From a virus: a stretch of DNA of 27,740 nucleotides. Positions 2,681-24,469 of the stretch are shown here, piece after piece (within the stretch, counting starts at the first letter, position 1; each line of letters begins with the position of its first letter). The translations under genes and the position numbers were made by a program. A model generated the notes under the pieces. It saw only the letters and a list, made by a program, of their open reading frames with translations. It made no database searches and was not told the origin of the DNA. The stretch spans positions 1 to 27,740 of the IMG/VR virus record IMGVR_UViG_3300021960_007377. The stretch is one strand, 5' to 3'.

Positions 2681-2868
2681 GTGATAACATTGAAAAACAG
2701 ATACTAGAAGAACGTAAAGTCAAAGCTCTAGAAAAAATAGGTAACTGTTTAGATACCCTTACCCTTTGGTTTGAAGAAATAGATAAAGAAGAGTGGGGAG
2801 AAAGAATTGAATGGTACCTAGATCTGTATAGAAAAAAATACCTTAGTGACGTAGAAGATGACGCATAA
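2677..2868 (+). CDS. Small acidic helical protein, function unknown
   Basis: A 63-residue ORF between two glycosyltransferase genes, overlapping the upstream one by ATGA and the downstream one by 11 bases. It is rich in Glu, Lys and Leu and looks largely helical, with two Trp-containing patches (LTLWFEE and EWGERIEWYL). I do not recognise a family. Its fit into the overlapping gene string supports it being real. It could be an accessory or partner protein for an adjacent transferase, but that is a guess. Confidence 0.6.
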   Translation: MSDNIEKQILEERKVKALEKIGNCLDTLTLWFEEIDKEEWGERIEWYLDLYRKKYLSDVEDDA

Positions 2869-4258
2869 GTTAGGTATTATAATTCCCTACAGAAATAGAC
2901 CTAATCAGTTATCCGAGTTTAGAAAAAGTATTTCTTCCTACCTAAGTACACCTCACGAGGTTATAGTTGTAGATCAACAAGATGATTTAGATTTTAATAG
3001 AGGTAAGCTTTTAAATATAGGTTTTCAAAAAGCGGACGAATTAGGTTGTGACTATATTGCGTTACACGATATAGATATGCTACCTATTGATGCTGATTAT
3101 ACATACAGTGACAAACCTGTACACCTAATTACTGAGTTAGATTTACCAGAAGGAGTAAATAGACAGTTATTTGATAGTTACTTTGGCGGAGTTACTCTGT
3201 TTCCTTCTTACATCTATAAACAGATAAATGGTTATTCAAATGAGTATTACGGTTGGGGGTTTGAAGATGATGATTTATTTTTAAGGTGTATTGAAAACGG
3301 TATTAATTTAGATAGTAAAGTCGTTCCTCAATTTACCAGAAATGCTGTTGGACTGAAGTTTAACGGTAAAGATAGTTTTGCCGCTGTACCAAATGTATTA
3401 AAATCATTCAGAGATTATACAGTATTTACTTCATTTAGATTTGATGAAATTAATAGACTTAAGGAAAACATAACAGATAATAATTCTATTTTTAGTATAC
3501 CTGGTTTTGATACTACGTTACTTATTAATTCATTCTTCGATTTATCCTTTCAGTTTTGGAAAAAAGATCTTAGTTCTATTTCTATTAATAACAAAATATT
3601 ACCTCAAGGGCATTTTAATGTTGCAGTAAAATTTAGTAATAAATCAAATCCTGCTTGTATTTCGGTATACGTTAATGGGAAAAAAATAGGTGATAATACA
3701 TATGATGAACTACTACCAATACACAAAAGCAAGTTAATCTACCTAGGAGTTGGAGACCCTAACAGAGATGAGAAACAAAATTGGTTTAATGGTAGTATTG
3801 ACAGATTCGCTATCTTTAATAGATGTTTAACAGATGATGAAATATATAGATTAACATCTAAAGCACCTCATACACTATTTGACTTTACTTTTTCAGATGA
3901 TTTAGTTAGTTATTATGAAATGTTAAACATTAAATCAAACACATTAATAGATTTAGCAGGAGAAAACGATGGGTATAGTTCTAACTGTAAACAAGTATAT
4001 ATGCCAAAGTCTAAAGATATTAATGTATTTTTACCTCACAGACGAGAAGGTAAATTTAAGGTTTTACCACACAAAGAAAATGGGTACAAAGATGGGTACT
4101 GGGTCAACTGGGCAAGTAGACAAAACCAGTTAAAATACTTAAAAAAGTTTTACAAAAAAAGATCTAAATTTAAAAATGATGGACTATCAACGTTAAAGTA
4201 TAAAATTAGTCAAAATTTTAGCAGTGGTAATTTTCATCATTTAGAAGTACATTTATGA
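2858..4258 (+). CDS. Beta-1,4-galactosyltransferase-like enzyme with inserted LamG-like domain
   Basis: A 466-residue protein. Residues 5-145 carry the beta-1,4-galactosyltransferase (GT7) signature: IIPYRNR (8-14), FNRGKLLNIGF (46-56), HDIDMLP (70-76) with the metal-binding DID, FGGV (109-112), and NGYSNEYYGWGFEDDD (124-139). The C-terminal 80 residues also look like GT7: H405 in VLPHKEN and NDGLSTLKY (440-448), which resembles the SDGLNSLTY block of animal enzymes. Between these, roughly residues 165-380, lies a beta-rich LamG/concanavalin-like region with FNGKDSFAAVP, VYVNGKKIG, LIYLGVGD and a closing DLAGENDG. The lectin-like domain thus appears nested inside the catalytic fold. A tandem paralogue follows by ATGA overlap. 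The domain boundaries are inferred by eye. Confidence 0.82.
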   Translation: MTHKLGIIIPYRNRPNQLSEFRKSISSYLSTPHEVIVVDQQDDLDFNRGKLLNIGFQKADELGCDYIALHDIDMLPIDADYTYSDKPVHLITELDLPEGVNRQLFDSYFGGVTLFPSYIYKQINGYSNEYYGWGFEDDDLFLRCIENGINLDSKVVPQFTRNAVGLKFNGKDSFAAVPNVLKSFRDYTVFTSFRFDEINRLKENITDNNSIFSIPGFDTTLLINSFFDLSFQFWKKDLSSISINNKILPQGHFNVAVKFSNKSNPACISVYVNGKKIGDNTYDELLPIHKSKLIYLGVGDPNRDEKQNWFNGSIDRFAIFNRCLTDDEIYRLTSKAPHTLFDFTFSDDLVSYYEMLNIKSNTLIDLAGENDGYSSNCKQVYMPKSKDINVFLPHRREGKFKVLPHKENGYKDGYWVNWASRQNQLKYLKKFYKKRSKFKNDGLSTLKYKISQNFSSGNFHHLEVHL

Positions 4259-5652
4259 AATTAGGAGTTTGCGTACCATATAGGAATAGAGAAGCTCATT
4301 TACATGAGTTTATACCAAGGGTTGGAAAACACCTTAAAGCTCAAGGTATAGATTTTCAGATGTACTTCTGTCATCAAGTTGATGATAAACTGTTTAATAG
4401 AGGTGCTACTAAAAATATAGCAGCCAAGCATGCTTTTGAAGAAGGGTGTGATTACATTGTCTGGCATGACATTGATATGATACCAGAACCTGATGCTGAT
4501 TATTCTTACCCAAAAGAAAACCCTATCCACCTAGCAACTAGAATATCTCAAATGGACTATAAACTAAAGTATCATGAATATTTTGGTGGAGCAGTTTTAT
4601 TTACAAAAGAACAAGTAGAAGCTACTAATGGTTATTCAAATGACTATTGGGACTGGGGGATGGAAGATGATGATCTATTCTGGAGATGTCACTTAGAGGG
4701 TATGACTAACGATACGTATCTAGACGTACCATTTAAACAAAAACGGATATTACAGTTTGATGGTAATAACTCATGGGCTAAGTTACCAAAAAGTAGAGAA
4801 CTAAGAACATTTAGTAACGATAGCCATACAGTTTCTATTTTAGTTAAATGTTTTCAACAACCGGATAAACAGTCAGAGTTTTTGATTGGGGCTAAAGATA
4901 AAAAGTATGTAGAATACCCAATATTAAGAATACCTGGATTTGATTACGGTATTTCATTTAATAATTCTAGAGCAATATCATTTCAATACTGGAATATATT
5001 CAACCAACATAACTACATGTGGTTAAAAAGATATGAAGGTCAATGGAGTTGGATTACAGTGGTGTTAGATGCAGATAAAAATTTATCTCATTTTTACCTA
5101 AACGGTACTGAAGTTGATAGTAAAGCAGGACACGGCAGTGAATCTCCTTGGAAGTTCAATGGCAAATTAAAAAAATATTCAGGTAAAGATGTTTATTTAG
5201 GAATAACTCCTTCTTTAGGTGAAAACGATCCTGCTAAATACTTTAAAGGTGAGATAGCTGACTTAAAAATTTGGGATAGAGCATTATCAGAACAAGAAGT
5301 AAAAGACTTACCTTTAGAGTACCCTTTAGACAGTATTATTTATAAGTATAATATTGATGAATTGATAAAACATCAATGTAATGAGGTTGTAGAAGAAGTT
5401 AAGGTTCCTAATTCTATTATTCCACATAGACGTACCGCTAGATTTACTTGTCTTCCTCATGAAGATGAAGGTTTAGTAGACGGTAAATGGACTAAAGGGG
5501 AAACTACTGCTCGAAATGAACGTAGATATGTACTTGAAATGCAAAAAGGTACATGGGATTATAAATCAGACGGTATAAAGCAAGTAAAATATGAGCTTGT
5601 AGGAGAGGAAATACTTACACCGTGGGCAAAAATGATTAACATAAGGTTGTGA
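4255..5652 (+). CDS. Second beta-1,4-galactosyltransferase-like enzyme with inserted LamG-like domain
   Basis: A 465-residue paralogue of the preceding gene with the same plan. It has VPYRNR (7-12), LFNRGATKN (46-54), HDIDMIP (71-77), YFGGAVLF (109-116) and NGYSNDYWDWGMEDDD (125-140). An insert of about 166-375 begins with FDGNNSWAKLP and includes FYLNGTEVD, VYLGITP, FKGEIADLKIWDRALSEQE, typical of LamG-like sandwiches. A C-terminal GT7-like remnant holds IPHRRTARFTCLPHE and KSDGIKQVKYEL (near 437-448). The corresponding C-terminal blocks begin at the same residue number (about 385) in both paralogues, so they probably arose by tandem duplication of an already nested gene and then diverged. 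It ends in GTGA, overlapping the radical SAM start. The donor is likely UDP-Gal or UDP-GalNAc from the family, not from direct evidence. Confidence 0.82.
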   Translation: MKLGVCVPYRNREAHLHEFIPRVGKHLKAQGIDFQMYFCHQVDDKLFNRGATKNIAAKHAFEEGCDYIVWHDIDMIPEPDADYSYPKENPIHLATRISQMDYKLKYHEYFGGAVLFTKEQVEATNGYSNDYWDWGMEDDDLFWRCHLEGMTNDTYLDVPFKQKRILQFDGNNSWAKLPKSRELRTFSNDSHTVSILVKCFQQPDKQSEFLIGAKDKKYVEYPILRIPGFDYGISFNNSRAISFQYWNIFNQHNYMWLKRYEGQWSWITVVLDADKNLSHFYLNGTEVDSKAGHGSESPWKFNGKLKKYSGKDVYLGITPSLGENDPAKYFKGEIADLKIWDRALSEQEVKDLPLEYPLDSIIYKYNIDELIKHQCNEVVEEVKVPNSIIPHRRTARFTCLPHEDEGLVDGKWTKGETTARNERRYVLEMQKGTWDYKSDGIKQVKYELVGEEILTPWAKMINIRL

Positions 5653-7019
5653 ATTCACAGGAAGTAAAAAGTAAATTAGATAAAGTAGGCTGTGGGTTTT
5701 GTTTAGCAAAATGGACACAAGTTACAATGCATTTAGGTTTGGGAATGACTCACTCCTGTCACCACCCATCTCCTCACAAAATACCTATTAATGAAGTAAA
5801 ACGTAACCCATCGGCACTACATAATACATTATTTAAGAAAAGAAAAAGAAAAGAAATGTTAGAAGGCAAAAGACCTTCTGAATGTAGTTATTGTTGGAAT
5901 ATAGAAGATAACTCTAATGCATTTTCTGATAGAGTATTTAAATCTAGCGAACCTTGGTCTTTAGATCAGTTCGATAAAATTAAATCAAGTGATTGGCGAG
6001 ATAATATTAACCCTAAGTATGTAGAAGTTTCATTTTCAAATACATGCAACTTTAAATGTGCTTATTGTGGCCCTCAATATTCTTCCAAATGGGTTGAAGA
6101 AATCGAAAAGTACGGAGGGTATAATACAACACAGAAGTATAACAACTTAGATGATTTACGAGCTAAAAATGAATTACCATTTAAACAATCTGAACACAAC
6201 CCTTATGTAGAAGCTTTTTGGGAATGGTGGCCTGACTTATATAAAGATTTACACACTTTTAGAATCACCGGAGGAGAACCTTTACTATCTAAAGATACTT
6301 TTAAGGTATTAGAGTATATTCAAGAACATTGGGAGGAAAACCCTAACCTATCTTTAGCTATAAACACTAACTTAGGAGTACCAGATGCATTAATTGATAA
6401 ATTAATTACAATTGCAAAAGATTTATGTGAGAATAATAAAGTTAAAGAACTTATTATATTTACATCAGTAGAAGCTACAAAAGAACAAGCTGAATACACT
6501 AGGTTTGGATTAAATTACGATAAGTTTTGGCAGAATGTAGATAATATATTAACACAATTACCAAAAGTAACAGTTAATATTATGGCAGCATTTAATGCTC
6601 TATCTGTTTTTACGTACAGTGACCTTATAGATAAAGTGTACGAAATGAAAAAGAAACACCACAATGAACAAAGGTATTGGATTTCTGCTCTTCAATTAGA
6701 CACCTCTTATATTAGATGGCCACAACATCTTTCTATACTAGTATTAGAGACACAACATAAAGAACTAATACTTGAAGCAGCTAAAAAAGCTTTTTACTAT
6801 GGAGCTAAAGGTTTTTCAAAAGAATTTTACGGATATTCTGGTATCGAAATACAGAAAATAAAAAGACTATATGACTATTCAATATCTGAAAAAAACTTTG
6901 ATGTAGATAAAAACAGAAAAGACTTTGGTAAATTTATTACCGATTACGATAAACGTAGGAACACAAATTTTAACAAAACTTTCCCACAACTAAAAGAGTT
7001 TTATGCTGAGTATAAATAA
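5649..7019 (+). CDS. Radical SAM protein with N-terminal twitch/SPASM-like cysteine region
   Basis: A 456-residue protein starting at GTG within a GTGA overlap. The radical SAM core is clear: CNFKCAYC (C133, C137, C140; CxxxCxxC binds the 4Fe-4S cluster and SAM), then ITGGEPLL (206-213), the SAM-binding GGEP motif. Ahead of the core are five more cysteines (C15, C18, C37, C79, C82), arranged as GCGFC, SCHH and ECSYCW. This resembles the auxiliary cluster region of twitch/SPASM proteins, but it lies N-terminal rather than C-terminal to the core. Proteins annotated as twitch-domain radical SAM occur in marine T4-like phages. The substrate is unknown; the surrounding glycan genes make a sugar or cell-surface substrate plausible. 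Confidence 0.85.
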   Translation: MNSQEVKSKLDKVGCGFCLAKWTQVTMHLGLGMTHSCHHPSPHKIPINEVKRNPSALHNTLFKKRKRKEMLEGKRPSECSYCWNIEDNSNAFSDRVFKSSEPWSLDQFDKIKSSDWRDNINPKYVEVSFSNTCNFKCAYCGPQYSSKWVEEIEKYGGYNTTQKYNNLDDLRAKNELPFKQSEHNPYVEAFWEWWPDLYKDLHTFRITGGEPLLSKDTFKVLEYIQEHWEENPNLSLAINTNLGVPDALIDKLITIAKDLCENNKVKELIIFTSVEATKEQAEYTRFGLNYDKFWQNVDNILTQLPKVTVNIMAAFNALSVFTYSDLIDKVYEMKKKHHNEQRYWISALQLDTSYIRWPQHLSILVLETQHKELILEAAKKAFYYGAKGFSKEFYGYSGIEIQKIKRLYDYSISEKNFDVDKNRKDFGKFITDYDKRRNTNFNKTFPQLKEFYAEYK

Positions 7020-10604: not shown

Positions 10605-11771
10605 ATGAAAATAGGTTTTATAGGAGTTGGGAAGCTCGGTAAAGAATCTGCCGAAGTAATGGCAGAAAAACATGAAGTTATAGGTTACGACGTGACACAA
10701 GTGTCCCCGGAAAACTTTCAAATGGTATCCTCAATAGAGGAAGTATGTAAGGATAGAGAAATGATCTTTATTGCTGTACCAACACCTCATCACCCAGACT
10801 ACGATGGACGTTATCCTACGTCTCATCTACCAAATAAAGATTTTGATTATAGTATAGTTAACAACGTATTAGATGAAGTAAATAAATACGTTAGCAAAGA
10901 TCAATTAATAGTACTTATTTCTACTGTATTACCTGGAACTATTCGTAGAGAATTTATTCACAGAATACCCAATGGTAGATTTATTTACAACCCATACTTG
11001 ATTGCAATGGGTACAGTAAAATGGGATATGGTTAATCCTGAGATGGTCATTATAGGTACTGAAGATGGTTCAATGACAGGAGATGCTAAGATGCTTTTAG
11101 ACTTTTATAAGACTTTTATTACTGAAGGTACAAGATATGAAGTAGGAACTTGGGATGAAGCAGAAGCAATTAAAATATTCTATAATACATTTATATCTAC
11201 AAAAGTAGCTTTAGTTAACATGATTCAAGATGTAGCTGAAAAATCAGGTAACATGAATGTAGATGTGGTAACTGGAGCATTAGAAAGGTCTACCCAACGG
11301 ATATTAGGTAAAGCATACATGAAAGCAGGTATGGGTGATGGTGGAGGGTGTCATCCAAGAGATAATATTGCTTTACGTTATATGGCTGAAAAATTGAATT
11401 TAGGGTATGATTTATTTGATGCTATAATGAGAGCAAGAGAAATACAAGCAAAAAACATTGCAACAAGACTTGTTATAGAATCAGATAAGGCTAATCTACC
11501 TATTGTGATATTAGGTAAAGCATATAAACCTGATGTACATTACGAAGATGGATCTTCTTCAATATTAGTAGGTCATTACTGTGAATCATACGGTTCTGCT
11601 AAAAAGGTAACTTATGACCCAATAGAACCTATTAAAGCAGTTTACTTGTTAGGGCATTTAGGTAAACACCACGACTATGACTTTCCAGATGGTTCAGTAG
11701 TAGTTGATCCATGGAGAAGTTTTAGAACAGATAAAAATATTAAAACAATACATTACGGAAATACTCGTTAG
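10605..11771 (+). CDS. UDP-glucose/GDP-mannose dehydrogenase family protein
   Basis: A 388-residue NAD-dependent nucleotide-sugar dehydrogenase, oxidising the C6 hydroxyl of an NDP-hexose to a uronic acid in two steps. The N-terminal Rossmann motif is GVGKLG (7-12). FIAVPTP matches the family strand that follows. STVLPGT (about 106-112) matches the S-T-x-x-P-G-T block. EAEAIKIFYNT places the conserved Lys at 190. GDGGGCHPRDN places the catalytic Cys at 249. A C-terminal KAYKPD block and a final VVDPWR complete the family plan. At 388 residues it is slightly shorter than many bacterial UDP-glucose dehydrogenases. It would supply UDP-glucuronate or a similar sugar to the upstream transferases. 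The exact substrate is not shown. Confidence 0.88.
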   Translation: MKIGFIGVGKLGKESAEVMAEKHEVIGYDVTQVSPENFQMVSSIEEVCKDREMIFIAVPTPHHPDYDGRYPTSHLPNKDFDYSIVNNVLDEVNKYVSKDQLIVLISTVLPGTIRREFIHRIPNGRFIYNPYLIAMGTVKWDMVNPEMVIIGTEDGSMTGDAKMLLDFYKTFITEGTRYEVGTWDEAEAIKIFYNTFISTKVALVNMIQDVAEKSGNMNVDVVTGALERSTQRILGKAYMKAGMGDGGGCHPRDNIALRYMAEKLNLGYDLFDAIMRAREIQAKNIATRLVIESDKANLPIVILGKAYKPDVHYEDGSSSILVGHYCESYGSAKKVTYDPIEPIKAVYLLGHLGKHHDYDFPDGSVVVDPWRSFRTDKNIKTIHYGNTR

Positions 11772-11883: not shown

Positions 11884-13629
11884 ATGGCAGAAACATTAAT
11901 CTCCCCAGGCGTACTAGCAAGAGAGAATGACATTTCATTTATAGCACCCGCACCAGTAGAAGCAGGGGCTGCAATCATTGGACCTGCAGTAAAGGGACCA
12001 GTAGAAGAACCAACATTAGTGACTTCTTATGGTCAGTATCAAAGAATATTTGGTACTACGTTTGAGTCTGGGTCTAATAAATATGAATTTCTTACTTCGC
12101 TTGCTGTAAAATCTTACTTTAACCAAGGTGGCAATTCAGTATTAGTTTCCAGAGTTGTTTCTGGTTCATTTGGTGCTGGTAGTAACACTACAGTTGCATC
12201 AACAGATGCTGGTAGTACACCTTTTACTTTAGCAACTTTAGCTAAAGGAGCAATTCAAAACACAGCGACAGGTTCATCACCTACCAGTGCTGTTCACAAC
12301 TCAGATGGTTCTTTAACATTAGGTTCAGCAGACAACCTACGTTGGGAAATCACAAACAAGGATGCTTCAGCTGGTACTTTCTCACTTTTAGTTCGTAGAG
12401 GTGATGATAATACTAAAAATAAAATTATTCTTGAAACGTTTAACGACCTTTCTTTAGATCCTAACTCTGAAAACTATATTGAAAGAGTAATTGGTAACCA
12501 ATACAAATCTAAAGCAACTGACGGTAGTACTACTTATATTACTACAACAGGTGAATACGTTAATCGTTCAAGCTATATTAGAGTTGCTTCAGTAGATAGA
12601 CAGACTCTAAATTACCTAGCTAATGATGGTATCACTGTAAGTGATGCAAATTATCCAAATGCTTTACCAACTAACCAGTCTGGTTCATTCCACAGCGCTA
12701 CAGGAAACTTATATAAACATGATGCTCCTAATAATCACTTTGGTGATATTACAAATACAAATACACAAGGTCTTGTAGCAGCTAATTATGCTGATGCAAT
12801 TTCAATTCTAGAGAACAAAGATGAATATGTATTTAACATTATTTCTGCTCCTGGATTAATTTATGACTTTGGAGATCACAAAACTCAATTAGATTCTATT
12901 GTTTCTGTAGCAGAATCAAGAGGAGATGCAATTGCAGTAATTGATTTAGAGCAATATGGTGCTACAGTTAGTAATGTAACAGCTGCCGCTGCTACTATTA
13001 ACAGTTCATACACAGCTACTTACTGGCCTTGGTTACAAACCCAATCAGCCACTGGTAAGAATGTATGGATACCTGCTTCAGTTGTTATTCCTGGAGTATA
13101 TGCCTTCACTGATGGAGCTGCTGCACCATGGTTTGCACCTGCTGGTTTAACTAGAGGTGGAATCGGTGACGTTATCCAAGCAGAAAGAAAATTAACAAGA
13201 TCTCAAAGAGATACTTTATACAGTGCAAACGTTAACCCAATCGCTACATTCCCTGGAGCTGGAATTTCAGTATTTGGTCAGAAAACATTGCAAAAGAAAA
13301 AATCAGCTCTTGACAGAGTAAACGTTCGTAGATTATTAATTGAACTTAAGAAATTTGTTGGTGACGTATCCAGAACATTAGTGTTCGAACAAAATACATC
13401 AAGAACCAGAGATAAATTTTTACAGACAGTTAATCCATATTTGGAATCTGTAACTCAACGTCAAGGATTGTATGCTTATAGAGTAGTAATGGATGAAACT
13501 AATAACACTGCTGATACAATTGATAGAAATCAATTAGTTGGTCAGATTTATATTCAACCTGCAAAAACAGTTGAATTTGTAGTATTAGACTTTACTATTG
13601 AACCAACAGGGGCTACTTTTACAGCATAA
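11884..13629 (+). CDS. 18: Contractile tail sheath protein (T4 gp18-like)
   Basis: A 581-residue structural protein forming the outer sheath that contracts on infection. The N-terminus (ISPGVLARENDIS, about 6-18) and GAAIIGPAVKGP (28-39) are typical of phage sheath proteins, as is the YGQYQRIFG segment where subunits interlink. The C-terminal region is the most conserved: LTRSQRDTLYSANVNPI, RRLLIELKKFVG, LVFEQN (about 499-504) and QIYIQPAKTVEFV near the end. It is somewhat shorter than T4 gp18 (659 residues), consistent with a smaller variable middle domain. It is followed after a 37-base gap by the tube gene, the standard sheath-tube pair. The start has an A/T-rich leader without Shine-Dalgarno. 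Confidence 0.93.
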   Translation: MAETLISPGVLARENDISFIAPAPVEAGAAIIGPAVKGPVEEPTLVTSYGQYQRIFGTTFESGSNKYEFLTSLAVKSYFNQGGNSVLVSRVVSGSFGAGSNTTVASTDAGSTPFTLATLAKGAIQNTATGSSPTSAVHNSDGSLTLGSADNLRWEITNKDASAGTFSLLVRRGDDNTKNKIILETFNDLSLDPNSENYIERVIGNQYKSKATDGSTTYITTTGEYVNRSSYIRVASVDRQTLNYLANDGITVSDANYPNALPTNQSGSFHSATGNLYKHDAPNNHFGDITNTNTQGLVAANYADAISILENKDEYVFNIISAPGLIYDFGDHKTQLDSIVSVAESRGDAIAVIDLEQYGATVSNVTAAAATINSSYTATYWPWLQTQSATGKNVWIPASVVIPGVYAFTDGAAAPWFAPAGLTRGGIGDVIQAERKLTRSQRDTLYSANVNPIATFPGAGISVFGQKTLQKKKSALDRVNVRRLLIELKKFVGDVSRTLVFEQNTSRTRDKFLQTVNPYLESVTQRQGLYAYRVVMDETNNTADTIDRNQLVGQIYIQPAKTVEFVVLDFTIEPTGATFTA

Positions 13630-13666: not shown

Positions 13667-14143
13667 ATGGCAGTAGAACCCGTACTTTTTCAAGCATTTG
13701 AGCCAAAAGTTCAAAATAGATTCGTACTTTCAATGGACGGTATTGAGGCGTTTATGATTAAAAACGTAACAGCACCGTCATTTACAGATAACGAAATAAA
13801 ATTAGATACAATTAACTCTTACCGTAAAATTAGAGGAAAGAGAGAATGGAACAATATAGATATGACTCTATATGATCCAATCAGTCCATCAGCTGCACAG
13901 CAGGTAATGGAATGGGCACGTCTTTCATATGAATCTGTAACAGGTAGAGCCGGATATTCTGATTTTTACAAAAAGCAACTTACACTTAAAATTTTAGGAC
14001 CAGTTGGTGATGTAGTATCAGAATGGCAAATATTTGGTGCATTCATAGTTGATATGTCTCAAGGTTCATTTGACTGGGCTACAGATGATGTAGTTGAGTT
14101 AACAGTAACTGTAGCAATGGACTACTGTGTCTTAGATTATTAA
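13667..14143 (+). CDS. 19: Tail tube protein (T4 gp19-like)
   Basis: A 158-residue protein forming the hexameric rings of the inner tail tube. It has the gp19-family pattern: a start leading into QNRFVLSMDGIEAFMIKNVTAP in the first 40 residues, a central WNNIDMTLYDPISPS (about 65-79), then QQVMEWARL, and a C-terminal IVDMSQGSFDWATDD followed by the final strand VELTVTVAMDYC. The length matches T4 gp19 (163 residues). It follows the sheath gene with its own promoter-like element and is closed by a strong terminator at 14171, so these two major tail proteins form a compact expression block. Confidence 0.93.
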   Translation: MAVEPVLFQAFEPKVQNRFVLSMDGIEAFMIKNVTAPSFTDNEIKLDTINSYRKIRGKREWNNIDMTLYDPISPSAAQQVMEWARLSYESVTGRAGYSDFYKKQLTLKILGPVGDVVSEWQIFGAFIVDMSQGSFDWATDDVVELTVTVAMDYCVLDY

Positions 14144-14254: not shown

Positions 14255-14995
14255 ATGGATTCAAAATTTAATTTACCCACAGAGACTATCGAACTTCCTT
14301 CTAGAGGATTACTTTATTCTGAAGATTCTCCATTGGCCAACGGAACTTTAGAAATGAAGTATATGACAGCTAAAGAAGAAGATATTCTTTCTAACCCTAA
14401 CTACATTAGACAAGGCACTGTAATTGATAAGTTATTACAATCACTTATAGTAAGTAAAATTGATTACAACGAACTATTGGTAGGTGATAAAAATGCTATT
14501 ATGTTAGCAGCACGTATACTTGCTTATGGTAAAGATTACCAAATAACCTACGAAGGTAGTACGGTTGATGTAGATCTGACACAGTTTGTTAACAAAGACA
14601 TCGACTACTCTAAATTTAAAGAACGTAGAAATGAATTTGAATTTAAGTTACCTAATACTGATAATGTCATAACATTTAAACTTCTTACACACAGAGATGA
14701 ACAAACTATAGAAAAAGAGATTGCCGGAAGAAAGAAGATAGATAAGAATTTATCTACCAATGTTTCTTCTAGGTTAAAACAAATGATTACATCTGTCAAT
14801 GGACTAACGGAGAGAAAGGATATTCACGAATTTGTAGACAATTACTTACTAGCAAAAGATGCTAGAGCTTTAAGAGAGTATTATTCATCAATCTCTCCAG
14901 ACGTTGACCTAACAATTTCGGTTATTAATGCCGAGGGCGTTGAGGAGGACGTTGACATGCCAATCGGCGTAAACTTTTTTTGGCCTGACGCATGA
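14255..14995 (+). CDS. 26: gp26-like baseplate hub / tail assembly chaperone protein
   Basis: A 246-residue protein resembling the T4 baseplate protein family of gp26. It begins with an N-terminal LPTETIELPSRGLLY (about 7-21), followed by EMKYMTAKEEDILSNPNYI (33-51), a pattern shared by tail assembly chaperone-like proteins of many large phages. The middle holds KLLTHRDEQTIEKE. It ends in IGVNFFWPDA; this FFWP-type ending is common in the group. The sequence at the end contains a T7 run (14975-14981) in the codons for F241-F242, after which the +1 frame is open for 79 codons with no good start of its own (see next entry). The family is probable; whether it acts as hub component or tape-measure chaperone is inferred from position just before the tape measure gene. 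Confidence 0.78.
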   Translation: MDSKFNLPTETIELPSRGLLYSEDSPLANGTLEMKYMTAKEEDILSNPNYIRQGTVIDKLLQSLIVSKIDYNELLVGDKNAIMLAARILAYGKDYQITYEGSTVDVDLTQFVNKDIDYSKFKERRNEFEFKLPNTDNVITFKLLTHRDEQTIEKEIAGRKKIDKNLSTNVSSRLKQMITSVNGLTERKDIHEFVDNYLLAKDARALREYYSSISPDVDLTISVINAEGVEEDVDMPIGVNFFWPDA

Positions 14996-15221
14996 TTATA
15001 AAACATTCCTTTACCAACAAATACATCAAATAGTATTTCACGGTAAAGGTGGGTACTCTTGGTGGGATGTTTACCACATGCCAATATTTTTACGTAATTT
15101 TATTTTTAAAGAGATTAAAGATTATTATGAAGAAAGTAACAAGAAACAACCTAAACAACCTAACAAAACACCAAAAGGCCCATCAGTAAGACCTTCTTAC
15201 ACAGTCAAGGCTCCTAAATAG
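14982..15221 (+). CDS. Downstream tail assembly frame, probably made by frameshift from the gp26-like gene
   Basis: A 79-codon open frame directly after the T7 run, in the +1 (equivalently -2) frame relative to the gp26-like gene and ending at TAG 15219-15221. Its protein looks real: QIHQIVFHGKGGYSWWDVY then HMPIFLRNFIFKEIKDYYEE, followed by a Lys/Pro-rich tail. This pattern resembles the small tail assembly proteins (gp51 or chaperone extension type) that follow gp26-like genes. The frame is closed upstream by TAA at 14970-14972 and has no ATG, GTG or TTG before M33 (ATG 15078), which would cut the conserved block in half. The overlapping ATG at 14992 leads to a stop after 13 codons. A fusion product of about 321-322 residues is the best explanation; non-AUG initiation is the alternative. 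Confidence 0.65.
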   Translation, partial: GLTHDYKTFLYQQIHQIVFHGKGGYSWWDVYHMPIFLRNFIFKEIKDYYEESNKKQPKQPNKTPKGPSVRPSYTVKAPK

Positions 15222-15230
15222 GAGTCTTTT
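15209..15230 (+). terminator. Rho-independent terminator overlapping the end of the gp26 extension frame
   Basis: GGCTCCT (15209-15215) pairs with AGGAGTC (15220-15226) over 7 bp with one G-T wobble and an AAAT loop, followed by TTTTC. The TAG stop at 15219-15221 of the extension frame lies inside the hairpin. It separates the chaperone genes from the tape measure gene, which has its own promoter-like site 2 bases further on. Confidence 0.8.
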
Positions 15231-15231
15231 C

Positions 15232-15239
15232 TATTTATA
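15232..15239 (+). promoter_or_regulatory. TATTTATA element before the tape measure gene
   Basis: An exact TATTTATA 14 bases before the ATG at 15254 and immediately after the terminator at 15209-15230. The terminator-promoter adjacency is good circumstantial evidence for a new transcript here. Confidence 0.5.
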
Positions 15240-15253
15240 ATATATACTAAAAT

Positions 15254-18094
15254 ATGGCTAAGCAACCAGGAGAAGATTTTGATTTAGAAGGAGCTAAAGA
15301 TTACAGTAGATCTATGGATGAACTTGCTGCTAAAGCAGGTAGTTTAGAAAATGATTTTCGTAACATATCCGATTTTGTAAACAAAGCTAATAAATCTATA
15401 CAAGATTCTAGCATCAACACTGGCAAATTACGCAATTTGACTTCTAGTGTTGCTAGAAGCTTTAGTCAATATGCGGAATTATTAGAAAAAGCTAAATCAA
15501 CAGGTAAGTCTTCTAACAAAATACAGGAACTAGGTAATAAAGTTTCTAGACAAGCTGCAGAAATAGCAGAACTTCAGAGCAGAGCTGCGTTGGAATATAA
15601 CAAAGCATTACAAAGTAGAAGAGAAATAGAAGAGAAGTTAGCCAATGCCACAGGGGACCAAGCAAAAAATTTGCAGGGTCAATTAAAACAGGCTATCAAA
15701 ATAGAGAAAAACGCTAAAAACTTAAGTAGCGGTCTAAATGACGCAGCTTTTGAAGCACAAAGATTTAGAGATGCTGTTAAAGAAGCTGCTGAAGCATCTG
15801 CAGAGGCTAGTAAAAGCGTACAAATTATGGCAGGTATTGCAGATTTATTTGAAACCCTAGGTGTAGGTAAACTTGCTCCCGAATTTCGAAAAGCTGCTGA
15901 TGCTATAAAAAAAGCCAAACTTGAAGGCAAAGGATTTGTAAAATCGTTAAGTGCAGGTTTAGGAGAACTTGCTAAAGGGTTTAGTAAACTATCTTTAGTG
16001 TTTCTAATCTCTCAACTAAAAAAGTTTGACACAAGCTTATCAGGTATAGCTAACAATCTTAACGTTTCTAGAGAAGTTGCTTTGCGGTTAAACGATGAAA
16101 TGATTAACCTCTCTAAAAATAGTAAAGGAGTGTTAATCAACTCATACGAACTTAATCAAGCTCTTACATCAATAAACGATTTATTAGGTACTGTAGGTAC
16201 ACAATTTGGCAATTCTGCAGAATTTAGTAATGCTTTACTTAAGACAAATGTAATTCTTACCAAAAGACTAGGACTAACTAACCTAGAAGCAGCTGGATTA
16301 TCACAATACTTAATTGCAGCAAATGCTAACGCTGAAAAACTTACTGGGCAAGTAGGTCAATTTAATGCTGAAAATTTTGTACAAAGTTTAGCAGGTGCAG
16401 TTAAAGTTTTAAATGTAGCAGAAGAAACAGCCATAGACTTTAAAGATGTACTTAAAGACATTACAACATCAAGTGCCGCTACACTTGTAAATGCAGAAAA
16501 ATTCCCTGGAGGTATAAGACAAGCTGCTATAAATGCAAGAAAATTTGGATTTAGTTTATCTCAGGTTGAAAAAACAGCACAAGGATTATTAAATTTTGAA
16601 CAATCTATTGGCTCAGAATTAGAAGCAGAACTACTCATAGGAAGAAATCTTAATTTAGAACAAGCTCGTTTAGCAGCTCTCAAAGGAGATACAGCCAAAC
16701 TAGCAGAAGAATTAAATAAAAATGTAGGTACATTTGCTGACTATCAAAATTATAACGTAATACAACAACAGGCATTAGCAGATGCTGTTGGTATGACTAC
16801 TGATGAGTTAGCTAAAACATTAATGCAACAAGAAGCATTAGGTAACGTTACCAACTCGTTTAAAGAAAGTATAGCAGGATTAAATGCAAATGAATTAGCT
16901 GCGTACACTGAAGCAATAAAAAATAACACCTCTTTAACTGCTGCTGAAAAAGAGAGGTTGTTAAATCTTGAAGCAAGAGGTGCTACTTTAGAAGATCAAA
17001 TCAAAAAAGAATTAGCATTAATTGCTAGTTTAAAAGAACAAGCCTCACAAACAACAGATCAAGTAAAAAAACAAGAACTGTTAGATAAAGCAGCTAAATT
17101 AAGAGCAAGTTTAGATAATTCACAAGGTGCAGCTCAACTAGCAATCCAACAAGAAAATTTATCTAATCAGGAAAAAATACAAAGAGCAATGTTAAAAGTT
17201 GCTGAAGCTGTAGATAGAATATTCTCTCGTACCGGTTTTATGGAGGGGTTAGATAAAGCAGTTGATGGATTTATTAAACTAGCTAACATTGCCGACAGTA
17301 TTGCAACAGGTGTTATTGCTATCACTGGAGCTTTTGCAAAAATGAGATTAAGAAAAGTTTTTGTAGAAGGATTTAAGTCTATAGGTAGTATAATAGACAA
17401 AATAAAAAGCTTCTTTTCCGGTCCAAGCATATCAAATGTAGTGGAAGGCGGTGTAAAAGAAGGTACCAAAGACTTTGCAAAATCTGCAGGTTCACAAGCT
17501 GCTAAAGCAGGGGGAAAGACAGTTACAAAGGCAGCAGGAGAAACCGTTATCAAACAAGCAATAAAAACAGGAGCAGTTGCTGCTGCAAAGCAGTCTAGTA
17601 GTGCAGTTACAAAATCACTACTTAAAAAAATTCCTGTTATAGGTGCTTTAGCGTCTATACCATTTGCAATGTACAGAGCTAATAAAGGAGACTGGACAGG
17701 AGCTGGAATGGAAGTTCTATCAGGGTTAGTTTCAACAATACCTGGAGTAGGTACTGCCGGTTCGGTAGCTATTGATGCTGCACTGTTTGCAAAAGATATT
17801 AACAATGCAATAAAAACTCCTGAACCAACCAGTCAGGAACAAGGAATTGTACCTAATGAACTTAAAACCAAAGAGGATACTAAAATCACAGGTAATAGTT
17901 TAGATGTAGAAGATTTTACTATACGTTCTAACCCTAAAGATACCTTAGTGATGGCCGGTGGCACTAAATTTGGTGAAGAAACTAACGAACTGTTAAAAGA
18001 GTTAATACAGGCAGTAAGAAGTGGGGGAGATGTATTCCTTGACGGTAATAAGGTAGGTAATAGTTTAATGCTTGCTACCAGTAAAACAACATAA
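15254..18094 (+). CDS. Tail length tape measure protein
   Basis: A 946-residue protein, the longest in the window. It has the tape measure build: an Ala/Lys/Glu-rich helical, coiled-coil-like N-terminal region (about 1-250); repeated helical segments to about 660; then Ala/Gly/Val-rich hydrophobic stretches (VIGALASIPFAMYR and ATGVIAITGAFAKM) that could cross a membrane or line the tube. A short C-terminal domain ends with VFLDGNKVG (927-935), a beta motif common at tape measure C-termini. Position after the gp26-like assembly genes and before the tube cap fits T4 gp29, although it is much longer than T4 gp29 (590 residues). The protein would set tail length and sit inside the tube. The long antisense frame inside it is a composition artefact. 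Confidence 0.8.
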   Translation: MAKQPGEDFDLEGAKDYSRSMDELAAKAGSLENDFRNISDFVNKANKSIQDSSINTGKLRNLTSSVARSFSQYAELLEKAKSTGKSSNKIQELGNKVSRQAAEIAELQSRAALEYNKALQSRREIEEKLANATGDQAKNLQGQLKQAIKIEKNAKNLSSGLNDAAFEAQRFRDAVKEAAEASAEASKSVQIMAGIADLFETLGVGKLAPEFRKAADAIKKAKLEGKGFVKSLSAGLGELAKGFSKLSLVFLISQLKKFDTSLSGIANNLNVSREVALRLNDEMINLSKNSKGVLINSYELNQALTSINDLLGTVGTQFGNSAEFSNALLKTNVILTKRLGLTNLEAAGLSQYLIAANANAEKLTGQVGQFNAENFVQSLAGAVKVLNVAEETAIDFKDVLKDITTSSAATLVNAEKFPGGIRQAAINARKFGFSLSQVEKTAQGLLNFEQSIGSELEAELLIGRNLNLEQARLAALKGDTAKLAEELNKNVGTFADYQNYNVIQQQALADAVGMTTDELAKTLMQQEALGNVTNSFKESIAGLNANELAAYTEAIKNNTSLTAAEKERLLNLEARGATLEDQIKKELALIASLKEQASQTTDQVKKQELLDKAAKLRASLDNSQGAAQLAIQQENLSNQEKIQRAMLKVAEAVDRIFSRTGFMEGLDKAVDGFIKLANIADSIATGVIAITGAFAKMRLRKVFVEGFKSIGSIIDKIKSFFSGPSISNVVEGGVKEGTKDFAKSAGSQAAKAGGKTVTKAAGETVIKQAIKTGAVAAAKQSSSAVTKSLLKKIPVIGALASIPFAMYRANKGDWTGAGMEVLSGLVSTIPGVGTAGSVAIDAALFAKDINNAIKTPEPTSQEQGIVPNELKTKEDTKITGNSLDVEDFTIRSNPKDTLVMAGGTKFGEETNELLKELIQAVRSGGDVFLDGNKVGNSLMLATSKTT

Positions 18095-23143: not shown

Positions 23144-24469
23144 GTGTTTTATATTGTAGAGCAAGAAGACAAGCTTGAGGGCTTGGAAAGATTATCAAAA
23201 TTAGGGTTATATGTTGATGTAATATCATCTAACGATCTCTACCACCCTAAACTAACCTCTACTATTGCTGTTTATGTTAGACCTGTTAATTCTAAACACG
23301 GTTATATTATTCCAATCAACCACGATGAAGGTTTAAATGTATCAAAAGATCGTGTCTACCGTATTCTTTCGAAAGCAAGTAAACTATATACATTAGATAA
23401 AAAATACTTACTCTATCACTTTAATTTACAAGCTGCTATTGATTTATCTTTAGTCTATGCAATGACTAAATACGATAGATTAGAGTATTCTAAAGAGAAC
23501 GTAACATTAAACTATTTTTACAATAAGTTTAGAAACTTCCCAAAGATCAATCAGCTCATTCCTATATCTAAATTATACGAAAGCTGTGAAAAAGTATATG
23601 ATCAAGTTAAGGAAGTTATCGAATACGACATTCCGTCTGGTTTCGATTTTTATAACAAGACTGCAACTAATATATTTTACCTATTAGAACAGTCAGGGTT
23701 AGGAATATACTACGATAATTTTGTTAAGATGTTTAGTCCACGTGACCCTCTTTACAACATCGTTGATAACACAGTTTTAACATCTTATAATTTATACAAT
23801 GTCACATCTAGACCTACTAATGCTTTTAATAGCGTTAATTTCGCTGCTATTCCTAAAAGTGAGCAACACAGGAAATGTTTCCGTCCGAAAGGGGACTATT
23901 TTGTTGAGTTGGATTTTGACGGTTATCACTTGCGCTTACTTTGTGAGCAAATTGGTTATAACCTTGGAACAGACTCAGCACATAAGCAGTTAGCAAAACT
24001 TTATTTCGAAAAAGAAGAGATTACAGAAGAGGAATATAATGAAGCAAAACAAATTAACTTTCACGCAATTTATGGCAAAATCCCAGAGAAATGGGCATTC
24101 CTTGAAATATTTGACAAAATTGATCGATATATCCGAGAGCTTTGGAGACGATTTGAAAATGACGGAGAAGTCTTGGCACCGATTAGTGGAAAAACATTTA
24201 GCAAAGGATTAAAAGATATGCATCCTCAGAAATTGATGAATTATATTATGCAATCGCTTGAAACCTCAAGAAATATTCTTATATTAAAAGAAGTACTTAA
24301 CTACTTAAAAAACAAAAAAACAAAATTAGTTCTTTACACATACGATGCTTTACTGTTTGATTTTCACAAAGAGGATGGTAAAGAAACATTAGAAAAACTT
24401 AAAGAAATATTAGAATCTGATGGTAAATACCCAACAAAATTTAAATATTCCAAAGATCTTGTGTTATAG
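23144..24469 (+). CDS. Divergent family A DNA polymerase-like protein
   Basis: A 441-residue protein; GTG at 23144 directly follows an in-frame TAA, so it is the earliest possible start, and the next in-frame ATG would lose about 107 residues. Residues 1-110 look like a degenerate exonuclease-like domain (AVYVRPVN, GYIIPINHDEG). The polymerase fold is read from TSR (221-223), motif A VELDFDGYHLRLL (254-266; D257), motif B AKQINFHAIYG (301-311; K302, F306, Y310), and motif C LYTYDALLFDF (397-407; D401). Compared with E. coli Pol I, the motif A Glu is His262, the motif B Arg is Tyr298, and the HDE of motif C is Y-D-A. It may be the replicative enzyme or an accessory one. Confidence 0.75.
   Translation: MFYIVEQEDKLEGLERLSKLGLYVDVISSNDLYHPKLTSTIAVYVRPVNSKHGYIIPINHDEGLNVSKDRVYRILSKASKLYTLDKKYLLYHFNLQAAIDLSLVYAMTKYDRLEYSKENVTLNYFYNKFRNFPKINQLIPISKLYESCEKVYDQVKEVIEYDIPSGFDFYNKTATNIFYLLEQSGLGIYYDNFVKMFSPRDPLYNIVDNTVLTSYNLYNVTSRPTNAFNSVNFAAIPKSEQHRKCFRPKGDYFVELDFDGYHLRLLCEQIGYNLGTDSAHKQLAKLYFEKEEITEEEYNEAKQINFHAIYGKIPEKWAFLEIFDKIDRYIRELWRRFENDGEVLAPISGKTFSKGLKDMHPQKLMNYIMQSLETSRNILILKEVLNYLKNKKTKLVLYTYDALLFDFHKEDGKETLEKLKEILESDGKYPTKFKYSKDLVL

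Follow-up and report, generated by a model that had tools for sequence, protein, structure and literature searches.

A probable programmed +1 ribosomal frameshift at a UUU-pyrimidine site in a likely phage tail assembly chaperone gene related to T4 genes 26 and 51

The window analyzed here is 27.7 kb from an uncultured virus record and carries a contractile-tail module. Comparative sequence evidence indicates that a gene related to T4 gene 26 very probably undergoes programmed +1 ribosomal frameshifting to yield a tail assembly chaperone in a short and a long form. The majority of ribosomes would finish this gene at its own stop codon, giving a short, G-type form. Some would instead move by +1 with tRNA-Phe on the UUU at 14975-14977, which would re-pair on the UUU at 14976-14978, and continued reading in the new frame would produce a long, GT-type form of ~320 residues ending NFF-GLTHDYK...VKAPK. 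By analogy with the G and GT proteins of phage lambda, the G part may serve to coat the tape measure protein, with the T part bringing in tube subunits; we infer the occurrence and rate of the slip as well as these binding roles. The relevant features, all on the plus strand, are the following.

11884-13629 (+), tail sheath gene (PF04984 and PF17482)
13667-14143 (+), tail tube protein gene (PF06841 Phage_T4_gp19, E 3e-8)
14255-14995 (+), gp26-like gene, likely tail assembly chaperone, G-type short product of 246 aa (phrog_150, PF12322, predicted fold)
14942-14948 (+), conserved purine-rich, Shine-Dalgarno-like GAGGAGG, -33 to -27 from the slip site (silent-site constraint)
14974 (+), non-T base (C) preceding the T run (AAC/AGC preferred over AAT/AGT)
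14975-14981 (+), putative slip site, T7 (TTT-Y invariant in 209 loci)
14982-15221 (+), putative T-type extension read in +1, with 79 codons and a stop but no canonical start (conserved protein, N/S ratio)
15254-18094 (+), tape measure protein gene (similarity to the Flavobacterium phage immuto tape measure protein)

The gp26-like gene thus lies where a G/GT gene is expected, between the tube gene and the tape measure gene, the latter identified by 34% identity over ~320 residues (E 6e-35) to the annotated immuto protein. Residues 706-851 of the tape measure protein match PHROG families labeled endolysin and peptidase, labels that may be misleading and reflect a shared hydrophobic, glycine-rich stretch. 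Elsewhere in the window, two adjacent galactosyltransferase-like (Glyco_transf_7) proteins (2858-4258 and 4255-5652), each followed by a Laminin_G_3 (concanavalin-like) domain, lie in the phage tail region. Upstream of the sheath gene are a radical SAM protein and a UDP-glucose/GDP-mannose dehydrogenase-like protein (5649-7019 and 10605-11771), possibly a sugar-modification cluster adjoining the tail module. A family A DNA polymerase-like ORF with a GTG start (23144-24469; 441 aa, Pfam match at 208-428) is short for a full polymerase and is followed by ORFs that resemble gp32 and UvsX/RecA by inspection.

At the junction, the gp26-like frame that begins at 14255 ends in GTA AAC TTT TTT TGG CCT GAC GCA TGA, with its stop at 14993-14995. 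The +1 frame is shut upstream by TAA at 14970-14972, opens at 14973, and runs for 79 codons from GGC 14982 to 15218 before TAG at 15219-15221; in the window it has no ATG, GTG, or TTG ahead of its conserved block. The -1 frame stops at TGA 14986. The A-site codon of the slip is neither a stop nor obviously rare. The coordinates, stops, and frames in the original prediction are correct (T7 at 14975-14981, stop at 14993-14995, TAA at 14970), as are its descriptions of a start-less 79-codon frame and of an immediate TGA after a -1 slip. Its central proposal, a programmed shift into the +1 frame of a gene in tail assembly chaperone position ahead of the tape measure gene, is now the best-supported reading.

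Conservation of the second frame provides the first line of evidence. Used as a tblastn query, the joined protein retrieves both pieces, in shifted frames, from immuto, Microcystis phage Mel-JY01, and a 484 kb metagenomic phage. Viral contigs and isolates together supplied 209 non-redundant loci carrying both pieces. Every close relative whose sequence extends at least 250 bases downstream, 278 loci before duplicate removal, has the T piece along with the gp26-like gene. The arrangement of a G/GT pair recurs throughout (a start-less second frame at constant offset, with a slip-prone sequence shortly before the first frame ends, 209/209 loci), and the +1/-2 offset is identical in 209/209 non-redundant loci, although these are related by descent and the counts are not independent events. 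Stops interrupt the T frame in 0/207 loci and the other two frames in 196/207 and 207/207. Single changes between close pairs number 900 synonymous vs 269 non-synonymous in the T frame; the ratio of non-synonymous to synonymous changes relative to expectation is 0.07 there, as against 2.0 and 2.3 for the remaining two frames. Across the slip site, the codon position with the least conservation moves from phase 2 to 0. By these substitution patterns, the T frame is a real coding sequence under strong purifying selection.

The same recurrence disposes of a sequencing or assembly error that split one gene, which the original prediction had named as a possible refutation. Homopolymer runs are prone to such errors, but the offset is shared by the 209 loci and by the isolates immuto, Mel-JY01, SP-15, LIS04, GXN1, and RM378, and this explanation, already refuted, carries a negligible probability.

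Public annotations of several isolates call the T domain in part only, from an internal start: immuto (L001, 4854-4964), SP-15 (L004, 3809-3928), Atu_ph07 (L299, 2391-2513), and RM378 (L301, 2177-2353). That of Listeria phage LIS04 has no call at the T domain.

The direction of the slip is read from natural variation at the junction. Zero-frame codon 0 is TTT, never TTC, in all 209 loci, and codon 1 is TTT, CTT, or CTA (178/28/3). In the gene alignment, codon 0, the first Phe codon, is TTT in 208/208 cases, although TTC accounts for 11-17% of three other conserved Phe columns. The resulting variants, TTTTTTT, TTTCTTT, and TTTCTAT, all share a zero-frame UUU-Y, an invariance that fits the need of tRNA-Phe (anticodon GAA) for UUY when it moves by +1 from UUU. 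In every variant the P-site tRNA can pair again after moving one base forward, and silent positions at the site are constrained. Comparison of the junction among relatives, suggested in the original prediction as a check on the T run, accordingly yields a divided answer: the frame offset is kept, and the invariant element is UUU-pyrimidine rather than T7 itself. In the CTA variants (such as L003 and L155), full re-pairing of tRNA-Phe is possible only with a +1 slip at codon 0, and a +1 slip from the second codon is impossible. In a clade ~42% identical to L003, the site reads TTC TTT T, placing UUU-Y at codon 1. Other relatives also shift into +1, from TTC TTT C in Streptococcus phage GXN1, again with UUU-Y at the second codon, and from GAA TTT TTT CAC in Bacillus phage SP-15, GAG TTT TTT AGT in LIS04, and TCC TTT TTT TGG in Rhodothermus phage RM378, which is only ~25% identical.

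Ribosomal frameshifting by -2 at this position would enter the same frame with one extra residue (NFFF-GLTHD), as in phage Mu, where -2 shifting occurs in decoding (PMC5009743). tRNA-Phe re-pairs fully on T7 after either shift, as the original prediction held, so that the T7 form by itself does not distinguish them. The variants do favor one direction: on TTTCTTT a -2 slip requires tRNA-Leu to pair with UUC, on TTTCTAT the mismatch is worse, and the TTC TTT T and TTC TTT C sites are compatible with +1 re-pairing but not with -2. Since the element common to all sites is UUU plus a pyrimidine, +1 is preferred, and a -2 shift appears improbable.

Transcriptional slippage on the T run would generate mixed mRNAs, some encoding the fusion. 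T7 is a homopolymer, and slippage is documented on longer T runs (Tn with n > 8; PMC3711429), but it is not expected at the interrupted TTTCTTT and TTTCTAT runs, which occur in 31/209 loci with the frame arrangement unchanged. This account is very unlikely.

The +1 ribosomal shift is further favored by constraint on the surrounding RNA. The codon before the run is AAC in 118 loci vs AAT in 2, and AGC in 33 vs AGT in 0, against a background of 32% AAC; avoidance of T at the position of 14974 removes the base needed for a -1 slip. Upstream, two Glu columns show GAG:GAA ratios of 106:19 (106/125) and 160:9 (160/169), with GAG at 18% elsewhere, and a Gly column at -9 is GGG in 91/149 vs a background of 6%. 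A Shine-Dalgarno-like 5-mer stands at the GAGGAGG position in 180/209 loci and at shifted positions in 0-9/209. Together, these silent-site biases near the slip site (TTT, C at -1, GAG, and GGG) point to selection at the RNA level. At 27-33 bases upstream, GAGGAGG is too distant for known Shine-Dalgarno stimulators. RNAalifold analysis of 145 non-redundant sites gave no conserved structure upstream or downstream, only a weak hairpin signal at -20 to -2 without covariation, and Rfam had no match within 14800-15300.

Strong Shine-Dalgarno-like character and selection at silent sites would also suit a role for GAGGAGG in independent initiation of the T domain from inside the gp26-like gene, with no frameshift at all, and a separate ATG is indeed in use at two related loci. 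In 59/132 loci, however, the T frame has no ATG, GTG, or TTG between its upstream stop and the T block. A properly spaced start after GAGGAGG would fall in frame 0, where the codon (at -18) is mostly Ile or Leu rather than ATG, and initiation of this kind leaves both the invariant UUU-Y and the avoidance of T at -1 unexplained. It is considered unlikely, a little more so than a -2 shift.

The two loci with a separate start are themselves informative. The original prediction had listed relatives with a normal ATG as grounds for rejection; such relatives exist, yet the slip motif is lost in them too, which supports frameshifting. In L312/L323 (a 187 kb contig) and in L317, the motif is replaced by TCA TTC TTG TAT and ACG TTC CTT TGG, respectively, and the T domain occupies an ORF of its own in another frame; the first ATG of that ORF comes 3-6 bases downstream of the first stop. 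L324 and L325, the next relatives of these loci, retain TTTCTTTGG and lack such an ATG. That the motif is absent from both loci in which the T domain starts at a separate ATG suggests that it was lost where no longer needed.

The original prediction overlooked the likely identity of the gp26-like protein as itself the chaperone, and the likeness of T4 gp51 to an in-frame G-T form. The protein matches phrog_150 with E 3e-14; for PF12322 it scores 24.3 bits, just below the cut-off of 24.5, and its relatives from L003 and SP-15 reach 56 and 100 bits. Both are the family of T4 gp26 and gp51. A model of the G part (pLDDT 91) matches, in a viral structure library, the SP-15 protein together with annotated T4-type baseplate hub subunits and hub assembly proteins; the T part, folded separately, was modeled with low confidence (pLDDT 69). 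Plain Foldseek against the PDB returned nothing with E below 0.5. Among solved chains, YqbN 3klu (Z 5.7), 3fgx (Z 5.5), and the HK97 tail assembly chaperone 2ob9 (Z 4.8) rank highest, and the next has Z 2.0. The matches to 3klu and 3fgx span residues 1-100 and that to 2ob9 residues 126-216, which would fit two chaperone-like halves in the model. YqbN is a member of the XkdN-like chaperones. Z scores of 5-6 are moderate, and the predicted fold therefore backs the chaperone assignment without proving it. From the sequence and model comparisons, the gp26-like protein is likely a tail assembly chaperone of the T4 gp26/gp51 family.

This relationship bears on T4 itself, named as the exception to the G-T frameshifting conserved in long-tailed phages (PMC5009743). 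Both T4 proteins, gp26 and gp51, appear in the literature as hub assembly chaperones; gp51 does not occur in the particle, and its function is given as unknown (PMC3004832). Their profiles align over their length (probability 99.5%, E 5e-23), with gp51 continuing past the end of gp26; by this alignment they are paralogues. Taken alone, the T domain gives a weak match at the extra end of gp51 (P 0.002 against full gp51). A T-domain set including RAS14, XacN1, Atu_ph07, SP-15, and other intermediates matches the gp51 tail at 74% probability (E 3e-5), with reversed controls at 0.1%. Comparison of profiles with single T4 proteins, and of the clade profile with T4 gp26, gave nothing significant. 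For T4, the profile evidence suggests a probable split in which gene 26 encodes G and gene 51 an in-frame GT.

In distant members of the family, the Phe-Phe motif holds a classical -1 site: Stenotrophomonas phage RAS14 and Xanthomonas phage XacN1 (T TTT TTT A), and Agrobacterium phage Atu_ph07 and LR756511 (T TTT TTC), which together make up the -1 group (L005, L298, L299, and L300). The direction of the slip has therefore switched within one homologous family. Searches of viral contigs with the RAS14 and RM378 proteins as queries gave no additional relatives. A broader proposal, to which we assign an even chance, holds that the whole gp26/gp51 family consists of tail assembly chaperones whose ancestor frameshifted at the Phe-Phe motif. 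Lineages would then have switched between -1 and +1, with GAGGAGG acting as a previously undescribed far-upstream stimulator and T4 carrying duplicates in which gene 26 specifies G and gene 51 specifies GT, gp51 having the role of lambda GT.

Comparison with known systems separates the familiar from the new. Frameshifts of the lambda gpG/gpGT type are conserved in tail assembly chaperones (Xu, Hendrix and Duda 2004, as reviewed in PMC5009743). The present locus shares with lambda overlapping frames ahead of the tape measure gene, a short and an extended product, and a shift near the first-frame stop; the likeness seen is one of arrangement, and whereas lambda shifts by -1, the shift here would be +1 on UUU-Y in a T4 gp26/gp51-family protein. 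T4 gp51 belongs to the same family and has its extra C-terminal part placed like the frameshifted domain, but in T4 there are two separate in-frame genes and no known frameshift. In prfB (CUU UGA) and Listeria phage PSA (CCC), as proposed here, the P-site tRNA slips +1 onto an overlapping codon; here the A site holds no stop codon, and the Shine-Dalgarno-like motif stands 27-33 bases upstream. The Shine-Dalgarno spacing in prfB is about 3 bases. The original prediction regarded a +1 or -2 event as unusual. That net frame is the one indicated, but tail genes offer precedents in phage Mu (-2) and HSTV-2 (very likely +1) (PMC5009743), which makes it less exotic; the gene kind and net frame are the same, and the sites and lineages differ. 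Frameshifted tail chaperones, including +1/-2 cases, are thus already known, and what is new is the connection to T4 gp26/gp51, the switching of direction at one motif, and the upstream element. In the literature covered, which took in few subscription papers or preprints, neither T4 gp26/gp51 as G/GT chaperones nor the present frameshift is reported.

For +1 slipping without an A-site stop codon, this site and its relatives form a large set of natural examples, and across the family homologous genes slip in either direction, -1 or +1 depending on the phage, at one shared Phe-Phe motif. Current annotations miss the T domain or give it a wrong start. If the broader proposal is true, the long-unexplained role of T4 gp51 would be that of lambda GT.
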